Shown piece by piece: positions 38,353-43,601 of a stretch of DNA of 48,876 bases. Below the pieces are notes generated by a model. It made no database searches, had not been told where the DNA came from, and was given only the letters and a program-made list of their open reading frames with translations. The stretch's first letter is position 1. Each line of letters starts with the position of its first letter. The position numbers and the translations under genes were made by a program. The DNA is from a virus, in IMG/VR virus record IMGVR_UViG_3300045996_000280, positions 1-48,876 of that record; one strand, written 5' to 3'.

Positions 38353-39381
38353 CTACATATCCAGTTGATTGGCAATTGACTCCATCGTGGGACGGTAATA
38401 AACCGTGAGTAGCGTTTTCAGGTCACGATGCCCGCTGATACGGGCCAGGGTCATGACATCCACCTTAGAGGCAAACCGGGTAAGCGCATCTGCCCGTGCA
38501 TCATGAAAGTGCAAGTTGTCGATTTGCAAATTGGTAGTTGCTTTACGAAACAAGGCGTCAAGAGATGCCGATGAAACAGAGAACAACTTACGCCCCCCAG
38601 CGGGGGCCTCTTCTCCAAGCGGGAAACTGGTCAGCACAGAAAGCAGACGAGTGGCGTGTTTGGACAAGGGAATATCACGCGGCCGGCCGGTGATGTGCTC
38701 TGTTTTATGAGACACAGAAGCTACACGCCTATCTAGTGAAACATTCTTGGTGGACAGAGACAAGATTTCCCCAGCACGCATACCAGTGCGCAAGGAAACC
38801 AGAAAGGCATAGGCAGTTTCAGCTTGTTTGGAATGCGGAATTGAGTTGGTGATGTATCCGAGCCAACGGCAAATAGCTTTCACCTCCTGCCACTTTGGTA
38901 GGCGTGTGCGAGGTGGGTTGTTGCCAGGGGTTTTCATTCCCTTAAAAGGAGACTCGGAAATCCATTTCCATTCATCCCGTGCAATAGAAAAAACATTTCT
39001 CAAAAGATTGATGTCTCGTTGCACCGATCCTTTAGAAACAACTTTAAGACGTGCGTCACGCCATGCAGCAATGTCAGGTGTGCCGATGTCAGCAAGTTGC
39101 TTTGTCACCAGCTGAGGGAACTCACGAGACAAGGCATAGAGCCTAAGACGTTCAGAGCGCATGCCACGCTTGGTGGGGGACACCTCCTCAGCGTAGCGGT
39201 CTAAAGCGTCCTGGAAGGTCTTGGAGGGTGTCTCACCACGCTTCTGGCGTAGAAGCTCTGCTTCCTTGACAGCGGCCCAGCTAGTGGCCTCTGCCTTGGT
39301 AGCGAACATCTCGCTGATACGAACACCGTTGCGAGCTACCTGAGCCCGCCACTTCTTGCCTAGCTTGTAGATGGATGCCAT
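38353..39381 (-). CDS. int: Tyrosine-type integrase
   Basis: A 342-residue site-specific recombinase. An N-terminal arm-binding-like domain (residues 1-50) includes KWRAQVARNGVRISEMFATK, a SAM-like core-binding region follows (about 55-160), and the catalytic domain has the Arg in TGMRAGEI, HFHDAR with His and Arg, SGHRDLKT with the second His, and Tyr in TVYYRP. All key catalytic residues are visible, so it should be active. It points against the surrounding operon and has its own terminator. Host-chromosome integration is expected. No repressor gene was found. Confidence 0.93.
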   Translation of the reverse strand: MASIYKLGKKWRAQVARNGVRISEMFATKAEATSWAAVKEAELLRQKRGETPSKTFQDALDRYAEEVSPTKRGMRSERLRLYALSREFPQLVTKQLADIGTPDIAAWRDARLKVVSKGSVQRDINLLRNVFSIARDEWKWISESPFKGMKTPGNNPPRTRLPKWQEVKAICRWLGYITNSIPHSKQAETAYAFLVSLRTGMRAGEILSLSTKNVSLDRRVASVSHKTEHITGRPRDIPLSKHATRLLSVLTSFPLGEEAPAGGRKLFSVSSASLDALFRKATTNLQIDNLHFHDARADALTRFASKVDVMTLARISGHRDLKTLLTVYYRPTMESIANQLDM

Positions 39382-39606: not shown

Positions 39607-40089
39607 ATGGCCCACTTTCGTGTGCAGGCTGGCCTGTGGCGGGCCGAGGTGTGTCGCGTAGGTGTGCGAACTTCCGCAACCTTCCCCACCCGAGATGCGG
39701 CAGAGGCATGGGCCCATGAGGTTGAGACTAGCCTAAAGGCATCCAAGAGCCCCAAGGCAATCCTAAGTCACCCACAGGTAGTAGCAACCCTCCCTTCAAA
39801 AGTCCTAGACGCCCGGCGACGGGTTCAACACTCACCCGAGGACATCGTAAAGCTGAGTCGCCCAGCACCAACCACATGTGGTGTGTACTTCCTGATTCGT
39901 GATGGAGTTGTCACCTATGTAGGGAAGACCACCAACCTACTGGCCCGACTGACAAAGCACCGCCGCATGGGCAAGGTGTTTGACTCATTCACGTTCATCC
40001 CGTGTGCTGAGTCTGAGATGACCCAGCTGGAGGGCGACTACATCATGGCCTATTGGCCAGCTGAGAACCGTGCAGTGGAGTTGACATGA
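39607..40089 (+). CDS. GIY-YIG nuclease with integrase-like N-terminal domain
   Basis: A 160-residue two-part protein. Residues 90-160 form a GIY-YIG nuclease: CGVYFLIRDG, VTYVGKTTN, LLARLTKHR with the likely catalytic Arg, and MTQLEGDYI with the metal-binding Glu. Residues 1-45 (WRAEVCRVGVRTSATFPTR, then a helix) align with the N-terminus of the integrase encoded divergently next door (WRAQVARNGVRISEMFATK). The nuclease may therefore read the same DNA as the integrase. GGGGGAG precedes the ATG. The stop overlaps the next gene. Confidence 0.85.
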   Translation: MAHFRVQAGLWRAEVCRVGVRTSATFPTRDAAEAWAHEVETSLKASKSPKAILSHPQVVATLPSKVLDARRRVQHSPEDIVKLSRPAPTTCGVYFLIRDGVVTYVGKTTNLLARLTKHRRMGKVFDSFTFIPCAESEMTQLEGDYIMAYWPAENRAVELT

Positions 40090-40277: not shown

Positions 40278-40552
40278 AGTTACGCAAACGTGCAAAGCAT
40301 CTGAAGAGCACACAGAAGTGTTGGATCGTGGTGCAGGCACATGGCCGGTGGGGCGTTGTGGAAGAGTGGTGTGTACCGGGCAGGGTGAAGCCCTTTGTAG
40401 GACCGATCCGCCCCATTGACTGGGATGCGTTCTACAGGTCTTTGGTTGACCCCATACAGGCTCTGGAGCGTGGCCTTATGGAAGCGGCCCGTGCCCTGGT
40501 CAGTGGTGTAGAGGTGGACGTAGATGCGGCACTAGACCTGGAGGATGAATGA
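40274..40552 (+). CDS. Hypothetical protein upstream of the polymerase
   Basis: A 92-residue protein with a basic N-terminus (KLRKRAKHLKSTQK) and an acidic helical end (GVEVDVDAALDLEDE). It overlaps the previous gene and the 12-residue leader frame. Function unknown. Confidence 0.6.
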   Translation: MKLRKRAKHLKSTQKCWIVVQAHGRWGVVEEWCVPGRVKPFVGPIRPIDWDAFYRSLVDPIQALERGLMEAARALVSGVEVDVDAALDLEDE

Positions 40553-40587
40553 CGGTTCTGACCTTTGACTGGAAAGTTAAGCCATGA
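40549..40587 (+). CDS. 12-residue leader frame that mimics the polymerase start
   Basis: The frame reads MTVLTFDWKVKP and ends in an ATGA overlap with the polymerase, which starts MSVLTFDFETT. Both junctions are overlapped. It may couple translation, or be a remnant of an older polymerase start left by recombination. Confidence 0.4.
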   Translation: MTVLTFDWKVKP

Positions 40588-41660
40588 GCGTCTTAACTTT
40601 CGATTTTGAGACAACCACCTACAGCAATGGCTCTGCCTTTGACCAACGCAACAAGGCGGTGTGTGTTGGTTTCCAAGAGGGAGCCCAACACGGGGAATGC
40701 CTCTTTGACATGGACACGGAGGACATCCAGAGCCGCATTGATGGTTGCTCCTGGCTAGTTGGGTTCAATGCCAAGTTCGATCTACACCACCTTCGCAAGA
40801 TTGGTGTGGACATTAGCAATGTGAGGGTACACGACTGCCAGCTAGCTGAGTTCATGCTTGAGGGGCAGACCAATCCCTACCCTAGTCTAAATGAAGCAGC
40901 TGAGAAGTATGGATTTCCTTTGAAGCTCGACAAGGTGGCGAGCGACTATTGGGACAAGGGTATTCAGACGAATGAAATCCCACGCGATGTACTCAGCGAG
41001 TATTGTCTGTATGACATCGAGCTAACCTACAAGGTCTATCAAAAGCAGCTGGAGCAATTTCAACAACAACCCGCCCTTTTCAAGCTGTTCAAGATTGCGT
41101 GCCAGGACCTATTGGTGTTGGAGGAAATGGAGTGGAACGGCATGCGGTATGACGCGGCGCTTTGCGCCGAAAGGAGCAAAGCAATTGAGGCCAAACTGGT
41201 TGAGATTAGAAAGCAACTGGAGAATGTTTACCCGGAGGTACCAATCAATTTCAGCAGTGGTGACCAGCTTAGTGCTTTTCTATATGGTGGGGTGGTTAAG
41301 CAAGACGCTAAAGAACACATTGGGTTTTTCAAAACAGGTGAGAGAGCCGGACAGCCCAAGTACAAGAACATTGTGATTGAGCATCGGCTACCACGCCTAG
41401 TGGAGCCTCTGCCAAAAACAGAACTTAAAAAAGAAGGATATTGGAAAACAGATGAAGCAACTTTACGAAAACTTAAAGGACCGGCTGCTAGAAAGTTCGT
41501 TGGTCCTTTACTTGAAATGGCTAAGCTGGACAAACTCAATTCTACTTACTACCAGGGCCTTCCGAAGCTGGCTGAAGAATGTAGTTGGCCGGATGGAATG
41601 ATTTACGGACAGTTCAACCAGTGTGTTGCAGCCACCGGGCGCTTGTCCTCATCTAAGCCT
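40584..41660 (+). CDS. Family-A DNA polymerase, N-terminal half, exon 1
   Basis: The exon encodes 359 residues. The 3'-5' exonuclease domain shows DFETT near residue 7 (Exo I), GFNAKFDLHHL near 58 (Exo II) and YCLYDIELTY near 138 (Exo III). The first part of the polymerase domain ends at CVAATGRLSSSKP, where family-A enzymes continue PNLQN. The next codon is TAA, inside a group I intron. Splicing joins it to exon 2 to make a 377-residue protein. Unspliced mRNA would give a 359-residue truncated protein. The ATG overlaps a 12-residue leader frame. Confidence 0.9.
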
Positions 41661-42365
41661 TAACACGATAGGGCTTACAAAACCGTATTAATTCAGGGGA
41701 ACTCCAGACCGGACAATCCTGAGCCAAGCCAGCCAATCCTTCTTTAGTGAAGCATATGGACATCAAACACTACTACGAAAACACAGAATTGACATTGGCA
41801 CAGATTGCGGAGCAAGTTAATTGCTCTGAATGTACTGTGCATCGATGGGTGAAGAAAAACTATTCTTCTTCTTTTAGGAAGTCTAGAAAAGCAGCATGCT
41901 ATCGAAATTCCAAACTGGGGGCACTCAACCCAATGTCTGGGAAAACAGGGGACTTACACCCTGGCTATGTTGGCCTAGTGTCCGATAATAAAGGGTATCT
42001 GATGCAACTGAAGCCCAGCTGGTATACCGGCAGGAAGCGATCCAAGCATGTATTCGCCCATCATATTGTCATTTGTGTCTCATTGGGCATCTCAGAAGTG
42101 CCTCGGGGTTGGGCAGTCCACCACTGTGACTTCAATCCCCACAACAATGAGTTTAGTAATTTGGTGTTAATGACTATGAGGGACCATATGCGTCTACATA
42201 GTTATCTGGAAGGTGCAACGACTATCTCGAAAGAGAGTACACTCAAATGGGTGGAAACATACGGTACGCCATTTAGGCGTAATGATATAGTCTACTCTTC
42301 ACAGGAATGTGAAGCTGCAAGTAGTGTTGCGGGGGAGGAATAATGACCCTCTCTGAATATCAAGG
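41661..42365 (+). other. Group I intron in the DNA polymerase gene
   Basis: A 705-base intron. The 5' exon end AAGCCU (41655-41660) pairs with GGGCUU (41671-41676), giving P1 with the U-G pair at the splice site. Further helices: P3 ACCGTA/TACGGT (41682-41687, 42260-42265), P4 TCAGG/CCTGA (41693-41697, 41718-41722), P7 GACTA/TAGTC (42220-42224, 42288-42292), P7.1 TCTC-GAAA-GAGA (42225-42236), P8 ACGCC/GGCGT (42266-42280) and P9 CTTCAC/GTGAAG (42297-42314). The last base is G42365. The P7.1 stem suggests subgroup IA, like other phage introns. Splicing restores SSKP-NLQN. Confidence 0.9.
41756..42343 (+). CDS. Intron-encoded HNH homing endonuclease
   Basis: A 195-residue protein of the I-HmuI type. 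The N-terminus has a helix-turn-helix (LTLAQIAEQVNCSECTVHRW) and a NUMOD3-like KLGALNPMSGKTGDLHPGY. The nuclease core reads FAHHIVICVSLG, PRGWAVHHCDFNPHNNEFSNL and MRDHMRLHSYL. It should cut intron-less alleles and drive intron spread. The frame runs on through the P7, P3 and P8 strands of the intron, so the last 40 or so residues are constrained by RNA structure. An upstream GTG (41747) is possible; no strong ribosome site is seen. Confidence 0.82.
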   Translation: MDIKHYYENTELTLAQIAEQVNCSECTVHRWVKKNYSSSFRKSRKAACYRNSKLGALNPMSGKTGDLHPGYVGLVSDNKGYLMQLKPSWYTGRKRSKHVFAHHIVICVSLGISEVPRGWAVHHCDFNPHNNEFSNLVLMTMRDHMRLHSYLEGATTISKESTLKWVETYGTPFRRNDIVYSSQECEAASSVAGEE

Positions 42366-42422
42366 AATCTGCAAAACTTCGCAGGCGACTGTCAAGACAT
42401 CTTCCTATCGAGGTATACATGA
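42366..42422 (+). CDS. Family-A DNA polymerase, N-terminal half, exon 2
   Basis: Eighteen codons, NLQNFAGDCQDIFLSRYT, complete the first polymerase polypeptide and end at TGA. NLQN is the universally conserved segment after SSxxP, and QDIFLSRY is the strand leading to motif A. Motif A itself is encoded by another gene at 42867. The TGA overlaps the ATG of the next small gene. This exon is recognisable only after removal of the intron. Confidence 0.85.
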   Translation, partial: NLQNFAGDCQDIFLSRYT

Positions 42423-42709
42423 AATTCCCAAAGCAATTTCTTATTGAACTGGCATGTGAGGATTATGACGATGATGTGGTTCAGATCGTCCACACTTCCC
42501 GAGGATCACCACGCCGCTGGGTGACTCCCATTAACCTTGTATTTCAGTATCAAGGTAAACTCTATCGCACCACTTATGAGACGGGTAATACGGAGAGCCA
42601 GGACACAAGCCCGTATGAGTACGAGCCGGACGAAATTGAGTGTGCTGAGGTAGTGCCCAAAGAAACAACTGTTGTGGTGTATGTCAACGCAAGCGAAAGC
42701 GCAGCATGA
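42419..42709 (+). CDS. Small acidic protein inserted between the polymerase halves
   Basis: A 96-residue acidic protein with a SRGSPRRWVTPINLVFQYQGKL-like strand block and a C-terminal VVPKETTVVVYV strand. Similar proteins often lie near phage polymerase genes. The ATGA overlaps at both ends show that it is a real part of the operon. It separates exon 2 from motif A. Whether it helps the two polymerase parts assemble is unknown. Confidence 0.72.
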   Translation: MKFPKQFLIELACEDYDDDVVQIVHTSRGSPRRWVTPINLVFQYQGKLYRTTYETGNTESQDTSPYEYEPDEIECAEVVPKETTVVVYVNASESAA

Positions 42710-42870
42710 ACCTGTTGAAGCTGGGTAACACCACGTCTTACACGACACGAGAAATTAAATATTTTCTTTCCTTTATTCGTGAGATTGAAGCTGAGAAGTT
42801 TGTAGCTGAGTTGTGCCAAGCTGCTTATGACATTGGCTTTGAGGATGGCTGGGAGGATGCCAGCGAATGA
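42706..42870 (+). CDS. Small acidic helical protein before the catalytic polymerase gene
   Basis: A 54-residue protein joined by ATGA overlaps to its neighbours. It is mostly helical (TTREIKYFLSFIREIEAEKF) and ends YDIGFEDGWEDASE. Its last codons contain the GGGAGGA ribosome site of the polymerase C-terminal gene. Confidence 0.65.
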   Translation: MNLLKLGNTTSYTTREIKYFLSFIREIEAEKFVAELCQAAYDIGFEDGWEDASE

Positions 42871-43601
42871 TTGTTAGTGTTGATGCCCGCGCCCTGGAGT
42901 GGCGCTGTGTAACCGAAATTGCACAGGAGCCTACAGCACTCCGTGAGATCGTTGAGGGACAGGACGCACACGAACTCAACCGCGTGGCATTCGACCTACC
43001 TTCACGACTCATTGCAAAATTATATTTGTTCAGAACCATTTTTAATCGTGGAAAAGGTTACGCATTCACGGTTGATCCCAACTTCATGCACGTGTCTACG
43101 TCGCAGAAATACTGGGACGAAGTAGGACGAAAGTTCTACACCAAGTACGCAGCCATTGAGGAATTGTATAAGAAGAACACCAAGCTGGTTATGGACGGCA
43201 AACCCATTGTGGGACCGCTCGGGAGGTTTTGGCCTATCCAAATGGAGCGTGATTTCCGTGGGGAGCTTAAGGTTCCAGAAACCAAGTTGGTTAATTACAT
43301 CGTGCAAGGCACTGGTGCTGATGTAATGGCAATTGCCCGTGTTTCATTCACCAATCGCCTGAAAAAGAAGGCATGGGGAAAACACGTTAAGCAAATTGCT
43401 ACGATCCACGACAGCATGGTGTGTGACTCGCCGAACGAACTAGTGCAAGAGGTGGTGAATCTCTACTACCAAGTATTTGATGACCTACCTCTGAACATCA
43501 AGAAACTATTTAACTACGACTGGAAGACGCCACTAGGGTGTGAAGCGTCTGCCGGTCCCAACATGAAAGATTGCGTGGAAATCCCACGCACTGACAAGTA
43601 A
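42867..43601 (+). CDS. Family-A DNA polymerase, separate catalytic C-terminal half
   Basis: A 244-residue protein that begins exactly at motif A: MIVSVDARALEWR (catalytic Asp). Motif B is SRLIAKLYLFRTIF, keeping Arg, Lys and Phe at the usual spacing but with Phe where most enzymes have Tyr. Motif C is ATIHDSMVCD. It has its own ribosome site (GGGAGGA, nine bases upstream). With the 377-residue N-terminal half the total is 621 residues, a normal phage size, so the two chains probably form one enzyme. An SSB-like gene follows. Confidence 0.9.
   Translation: MIVSVDARALEWRCVTEIAQEPTALREIVEGQDAHELNRVAFDLPSRLIAKLYLFRTIFNRGKGYAFTVDPNFMHVSTSQKYWDEVGRKFYTKYAAIEELYKKNTKLVMDGKPIVGPLGRFWPIQMERDFRGELKVPETKLVNYIVQGTGADVMAIARVSFTNRLKKKAWGKHVKQIATIHDSMVCDSPNELVQEVVNLYYQVFDDLPLNIKKLFNYDWKTPLGCEASAGPNMKDCVEIPRTDK

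Follow-up and report, generated by a model that had tools for sequence, protein, structure and literature searches.

A family-A DNA polymerase gene split before motif A and conserved across a clade of phages

A family-A DNA polymerase divided between two open reading frames (ORFs) was reported in 2023 for the OM43 phages MEP401 and MEP402, whose gap holds a single small ORF; whether this gap is an intron was left open there (PMC10580990). Here we describe a polymerase locus of this kind in the IMG/VR virus record IMGVR_UViG_3300045996_000280, whose whole analysed stretch of 48,876 nucleotides (nt) is called the window below, and compare it with relatives among viral contigs and isolates. In the window, as in MEP401, MEP402 and most MEP401-type genomes, one ORF encodes the exonuclease and the N-terminal part of the polymerase (PolA) and another encodes the C-terminal part. 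The break point is the same in MEP402, where the first ORF ends SRYGETT* (asterisk, stop codon) and the next reads MILNADAKALEW, again with a small ORF between. Unlike the window, MEP401 and MEP402 have one unrelated small ORF rather than two, and their first half lacks a group I intron. By its break site and its grouping with split members, the window locus falls within the MEP401-type split clade and belongs, on sequence comparison, to the published kind of split polymerase. New here are the breadth of the split, the case against an intron, an independent parallel in ICP2-like phages and a question concerning motif A in relatives.

The closest annotated isolate is Alcaligenes phage vB_Af_QDWS535 (OK172329), whose halves are 50% (N) and 48% (C) identical to those of the window, share the same break and are annotated as two family-A polymerases; unlike those of the window, they overlap by 1 nt (TAATG), with no small genes and no intron. 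ICP2-like vibriophages (ICP2, Saratov-12, VP41s3) also divide a family-A polymerase between two ORFs, and the cargo of the gap varies: 9 nt in Saratov-12 (L171 4155-4170; L numbers denote individual loci and their contigs), an HNH gene in ICP2 (L010 2799-3345) and a gene of 87 amino acids (aa) in VP41s3. Because these phages lie outside the split clade in the tree described below and are cut about 12 residues earlier than the window (NLQNISN* / MSDIKRCIVSRF), their split is an independent one. The ICP2 insert was considered as a group I intron and rejected, as an Rfam search of the insert found no intron and Saratov-12 has a 9-nt stop/start junction. The RefSeq 'join' that annotates the ICP2 polymerase as spliced is probably a misannotation. 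Split replication enzymes linked to homing endonucleases are also known from T4-like phages, namely gp43 (43A/43B), NrdA of Aeh1 and topoisomerase 39/60, and the split gp43A/B and NrdA function as complexes (PMC2988022). These too are essential phage replication enzymes in two active polypeptides, but they are a family-B polymerase or other enzymes with no sequence relation to the split in the window.

We propose, with a probability of roughly 0.87 for the explanation as a whole, that the product of this locus is a replicative family-A polymerase of two subunits, with an ancient and fixed split, a gap that acts as a landing site, and an intron acquired later. An N chain (exonuclease, thumb and first palm strand) and a C chain (catalytic palm and fingers) would be separate translation products of a single transcript, with a start of its own for the C chain and probable coupling through ATGA overlaps, and the two would join by non-covalent contacts to give an ordinary Pol A fold. 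The split would be old and fixed in the phage clade, small genes and homing-type endonucleases would come and go in the gap, and the group I intron would have entered a different conserved site of the polymerase later and independently.

Conservation of the split across a phage clade

Viral contigs were profile-searched with the N half alone and with the C half alone; each search gave more than 500 loci, of which the best 80 were taken. The two sets overlap and contain near-duplicates, and together comprise about 150 loci with 58 representatives; the search with the N half alone is independent of the split. Among these loci, the best 80 of each search, no fused polymerase was seen, and both halves never occurred in one open frame. 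In every locus with both ends visible the break lies at the same place, ...SRY(x) followed by M-hydrophobic-hydrophobic-x-x-D-A, which in the window reads SRYT / MIVSVDA. The same break is present in the isolates QDWS535, MEP401 and MEP402, and these isolates together with the contigs rule out chance or assembly error as the cause of the split; the metagenomic origin of the record might suggest an assembly or sequencing artefact, but given these independent occurrences the chance of one is minimal. A separate search of genome contigs gave a single close match, an N half at L176 3667-4827 on a contig assigned to a Thaumarchaeota metagenome-assembled genome, which is probably a mis-binned phage contig.

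In a tree built with FastTree from 71 sequences, the 58 split representatives are monophyletic (Shimodaira-Hasegawa (SH) support 0.88) with no fused member within, and the fused polymerases of the HMO-2011-type phages CRP-3 and CRP-738 fall outside. The fused CRP-3 sequence around the site is SRF-PGGRVGEW-D. Comparison of fused CRP-3, SRFPGGRVGEWDFSGLEFR, with split L111, SRFND*MLIACDASQLEWR, shows equal lengths and places the break in the PGGR turn; in L111 the halves are parted by one TAA, followed by an ATG in the same frame. By these sequence comparisons the split is fixed across a large and diverse phage clade and long established.

The gap between the halves varies widely among relatives, from -17 nt (a 17-nt overlap, e.g. 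L064) to 3.6 kilobases (kb), with 1-nt overlaps (-1; L004, L021), single stops (0; L111) and gaps of 50-500 nt (138 in L003, 231 in MEP402) also found. The largest, 3598 nt in MW202796, holds a cytosine methyltransferase and other genes. Because the halves of relatives overlap, touch or lie far apart, an intron cannot be the general cause of the split. For the window itself, an intron at 42420-42866 whose splicing gives a continuous polymerase is an option of the kind raised by the authors on the OM43 phages (PMC10580990), and group I introns are indeed common in phage polymerase genes, with a genuine one only 50 nt upstream. Rfam, however, finds no intron family in 42420-42866, and the 447 nt are filled by two ORFs with ATGA overlaps, one of which is conserved in L003, so that a second intron here is very unlikely. 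An earlier interpretation made from the letters of the window (the sequence-only reading) had named this second intron as the rival to its own account and had suggested searching phage genomes for the same break point; that search recovered the break throughout the surveyed loci, and the range of gaps speaks against the rival. The question left open in print (PMC10580990) is settled by this comparison, in that the small ORF between the polymerase ORFs is not an intron.

Evidence for a proposed two-chain enzyme

Both halves match the Pfam DNA_pol_A profile above its cut-off of 34.3 bits (N half 56.4 bits, E=3e-15; C half 52.9 bits, E=4e-14), and they cover complementary parts of its 381 positions, 48-126 and 154-378. 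The exonuclease motif residues of the N half (D7, E9; N62, D66; Y140, D144) and the residues of motifs A, B and C in the C half (D6, E11; R47, K51; H181, D182) are invariant across the aligned relatives. By Pfam, motifs and predicted fold, the window proteins are identified as a family-A DNA polymerase of the Pol I/T7 type. As the reading frame between the halves contains many stops, they cannot be one ORF.

The ratio of nonsynonymous to synonymous substitution rates (dN/dS) between the window and L003 is 0.119 for the N half and 0.122 for the C half, and by this measure both are under purifying selection. Pairwise distances of the N and C halves correlate with r = 0.857 (46 representatives; 0 of 2000 permutations reach this value), a correlation of a size that shared ancestry alone is also expected to give. 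Searches of the 48.9-kb record for PolB and PolC gave no match, and its PolA matches were only the two halves. A gene in several pieces, accompanied by mobile DNA, could be taken for a decaying or inactive polymerase that has been replaced by another; dN/dS of 0.12 in both halves, the retention of all catalytic residues, the same state across a diverse clade and the lack of another polymerase in the record argue strongly against this, and we consider it highly improbable.

Predicted structures point to one enzyme. L111, with its stop read as a residue and used as a single-chain proxy, was folded with a predicted local distance difference test score (pLDDT) of 90 and a predicted template modelling score (pTM) of 0.85, and its best PDB matches are Klenow and Bst Pol I (template modelling score, TM, 0.74-0.79). 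In this model the break lies in a loop directly before strand 378-385, the strand bearing motif A. The C half of the window alone, modelled with AlphaFold2, reached pLDDT 93.8 with PDB matches to the Bst, Taq and T7 polymerases. The cut lies at the surface turn of a beta-hairpin before motif A, so that two chains could still form one Pol A fold, and because the thumb and first palm strand lie in the N half, the C half should need the N half. These points bear on the proposal that the halves act apart, the N half as an exonuclease on its own and the C half as a polymerase working with a different partner. Each half is limited to certain functions, and one relative has 3.6 kb between the two genes, as such a division would allow; but the C half is without the thumb and first palm strand, the N half conserves precisely these elements (GRLSSSKPNLQN...SRY), the N and C distances co-vary, and the read-through relative L111 is predicted to fold as a complete Pol A. 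We regard separate action as improbable, and favour the assembly of both chains into one active enzyme, with translational coupling, as the probable state.

Several points weigh against this preferred explanation. The support for a two-chain enzyme consists of sequence comparison and predicted structure, and the fold of the complex is represented by a single-chain proxy from one relative (21 sequences). Another polymerase could lie outside the record, which is a linear virus contig whose completeness is not stated. Support for the split-clade node is moderate (SH 0.88), and since the survey covers the closest 80 loci per search, a rare fused member could escape it. If the explanation is right, a family-A replicase can stay permanently two-chain while cut beside its catalytic aspartate, and the conserved cut site would offer a ready design for split polymerases.

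Gene order, gap cargo and the group I intron

Coordinates of the locus are given in Table 1. After removal of the intron the N half comprises 377 residues (359+18), and the C half, which begins MIVSVDARALEWR, brings the polymerase to 359+18+244 = 621 residues. A GGAGG lies 10 nt upstream of the C-half ATG, as read in L001, a copy of the window. ATGA overlaps mark each of the starts at 42419, 42706 and 42867, and the junction of the C half with the next gene (43601/43604) is TAAACATG.

Table 1. Positions of the polymerase locus parts in the window and of motif interruptions in relatives
Feature	Coordinates	Strand	Evidence or remark
Mini-ORF, 12 codons, MTVLTFDWKVKP then stop	40549..40587	+	seen in sequence
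Polymerase N half, exon 1: 3'-5' exonuclease, thumb, palm start	40584..41660	+	359 codons, last residues GRLSSSKP; PF00476 3e-15, PF01612 9.5e-6, phrog_9556 3e-58
Group I intron, 705 nt, between GRLSSSKP and NLQN codons	41661..42365	+	Rfam RF00028; homologous introns
HNH homing-type endonuclease ORF inside intron, 198 aa	41747..42343	+	PF13392 7.4e-8; phrog_7545 1.8e-50
Polymerase N half, exon 2: NLQNFAGDCQDIFLSRYT then TGA	42366..42422	+	intron-free counterpart in L003 4785-4862
Small gene 1, 96 aa, no assigned function	42419..42709	+	phrog_6343 3.7e-19
Small gene 2, 54 aa, no assigned function	42706..42870	+	between halves in L003 too
Polymerase C half: motif A (VDARALEWR), motif B, motif C (HDS)	42867..43601	+	244 aa; PF00476 3.8e-14
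Motif-A interruptions in relatives	L093 2488-2524; L094 6001-6037; L095 4464-4490; L101 2083-2120; L112 4958-4987; L113 6001-6034; L118 5966-5995; L119 6001-6037; L123 867-900; L134 5979-6001; L143 5988-6022; L144 5972-6001; L015 8165-8205; L018 3891-3924; L019 4363-4392; L127 4567-4600; L133; L188		
Motif-B interruptions in relatives	L014 4929-5594; L018 4067-4651; L206		after LPSRLIxK

The sequence-only reading had described a first polypeptide from two exons ending at a TGA, two small genes, and a second part with its own ribosome site starting at motif A, with all exonuclease motifs in the first part, motifs A, B and C in the second, a normal total length and an intron in the first half. 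The alignments and searches confirm this in its details, the sum of 621 residues included. Its statement that every junction is an ATGA overlap holds for the three starts named above and fails at 43601/43604. Its view of a settled, functional split accords with purifying selection, intact motifs, co-varying distances and the single polymerase found. The arrangement that it called unusual is clade-wide and was published in 2023 for MEP401/402, and the intron is a sporadic addition.

The close relative L003, 85-89% identical to the window, is without both the intron and the 96-aa gene. Relatives of this 96-aa protein occur elsewhere, in unrelated phages of Aeromonas, Vibrio, Salmonella and Bacillus. 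The 54-aa gene is 98% identical between the window and L003, with dN/dS 0.06 on few changes, and a search for phage relatives of it gave no match. In the gap of the window there is no endonuclease gene; L012, L024, L026, L101, L118, L119, L120, L123 and ICP2 have HNH or endonuclease VII-like genes in theirs. By these comparisons gap cargo is fluid in the clade of the window, as in ICP2-like phages. The gap endonucleases of relatives may be later arrivals. An origin of the split itself by insertion of a homing endonuclease is plausible because of the T4-type precedents (PMC2988022), with which it is argued by analogy.

The intron in the first half was matched by Rfam Intron_gpI in a permissive search (25.9 bits, E=3.6e-4; gathering score 50 bits), and at the gathering threshold Rfam found nothing over the window. 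L015 and L117 carry homologous introns at the identical codon (E = 4.8e-6 and 5.6e-5, respectively); the P7 region and the ends are nearly identical among the three, and the core is conserved. The P1 exon/intron pairing is AAGCCU/AGGGCUU in the window and AGGCCU/AGGGCCU in L015, a compensating change as read from the alignment. In L003 the exons are joined at the 41661 site, and an intron is present there in 3 of the approximately 150 loci. From this comparison the group I intron is real and sporadic, and is a separate element that is not part of the split; that it splices is probable. In the SPO1/HMU phages, Bastille and phiL7, splicing restores one uninterrupted polymerase, whereas in the window it would restore the N half only. 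The likeness to these phages lies in a group I intron with an HNH endonuclease in a family-A polymerase gene (cited in PMC10580990).

The mini-ORF upstream appears to be a partial duplication of the polymerase start and overlaps the true start by ATGA. This duplication is missing in L003, where the polymerase begins MTVLTFDFETT with a direct ATGA overlap. Further upstream, at 39607-40089, a 160-aa protein has a weak GIY-YIG nuclease match, and its N-terminus resembles the arm-binding start of the adjoining integrase (38353-39381, minus strand); L003 keeps the pair, with a diverged N-terminus.

Motif-A interruptions in relatives

The motif A of the window is intact. By comparison, inserts of 1, 2, 6, 7, 8 or 10 nt, mostly with a stop, interrupt the frame within motif A (DASQL^EWR) in about 17 of the 145 distinct C halves, and removal of the insert restores the motif-A consensus exactly. 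Examples are CTT[T]GAG (L133, L134), CTT[TA]GAG (L095, L112, L188), CTT[TAGCCC]GAA (L093, L094, L119), CTT[TAGCTT]GAA (L113), CTA[TAGCTA]GAA (L018) and GAA[TAGCTACGAT]TGG (L143). Introns were rejected as an explanation of these breaks, with no Rfam match there and inserts of only 1-10 nt, and two matches to the exact pattern (L191, L193) were discarded as not polymerase.

The rest of the interrupted genes shows dN/dS of 0.05-0.2, i.e. purifying selection, and no second polymerase copy was found in the six interrupted records checked. An insert can be present or absent between close relatives, as L092 (no insert) is 95% identical to L093/L094 (insert). A GGAGG within 24 nt before the start was found in 14 of 17 interrupted versus 4 of 110 uninterrupted C halves, and an endonuclease in the gap in 6 of 20 versus 2 of 126, both counts ignoring kinship. 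For inserts of at least 6 nt, the preceding codon and the last insert triplet match at 19 of 30 bases (P = 0.0002 versus shuffled inserts), in a test chosen after the data were seen, and the match could instead stem from tandem duplication.

'Stop-hops' of this kind have been described in synthetic constructs, and T4 gene 60 is a split gene whose bypassed 50-nt insert may have guarded against a homing nuclease (PMC5009743). Because of the selection, the lack of a second copy and these precedents, recoding by bypassing or frameshifting is the likeliest reading of the motif-A inserts. CUU-UAG-CUU and CUA-UAG-CUA would be putative hop sites, and a CUU-UGA site in the motif A of relatives resembles the RF2 site. 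More tentatively, and by analogy, the locus might be a counterpart of the T4 topoisomerase 39/mobA/60 cassette, with homing-type endonucleases lodged in the gap of a split replication enzyme and ribosomes hopping or shifting over short non-coding motif-A inserts in a minority of relatives, a suggestion to which we give somewhat less than even odds. If true, a replicative DNA polymerase would offer a natural case of short-distance bypassing within its catalytic motif. The interruptions make a long-presumed, hardly documented decoding event directly testable in these relatives.

A few other breaks occur in C halves. Those near motif B are found in L014, L018 and L206, the first of these with a weak group I intron match (E=0.028). 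Small shifts adjoin motif A in L007 and L026, and L188 has, alongside its motif-A insert, a second C-half break before motif C, at profile position 146.

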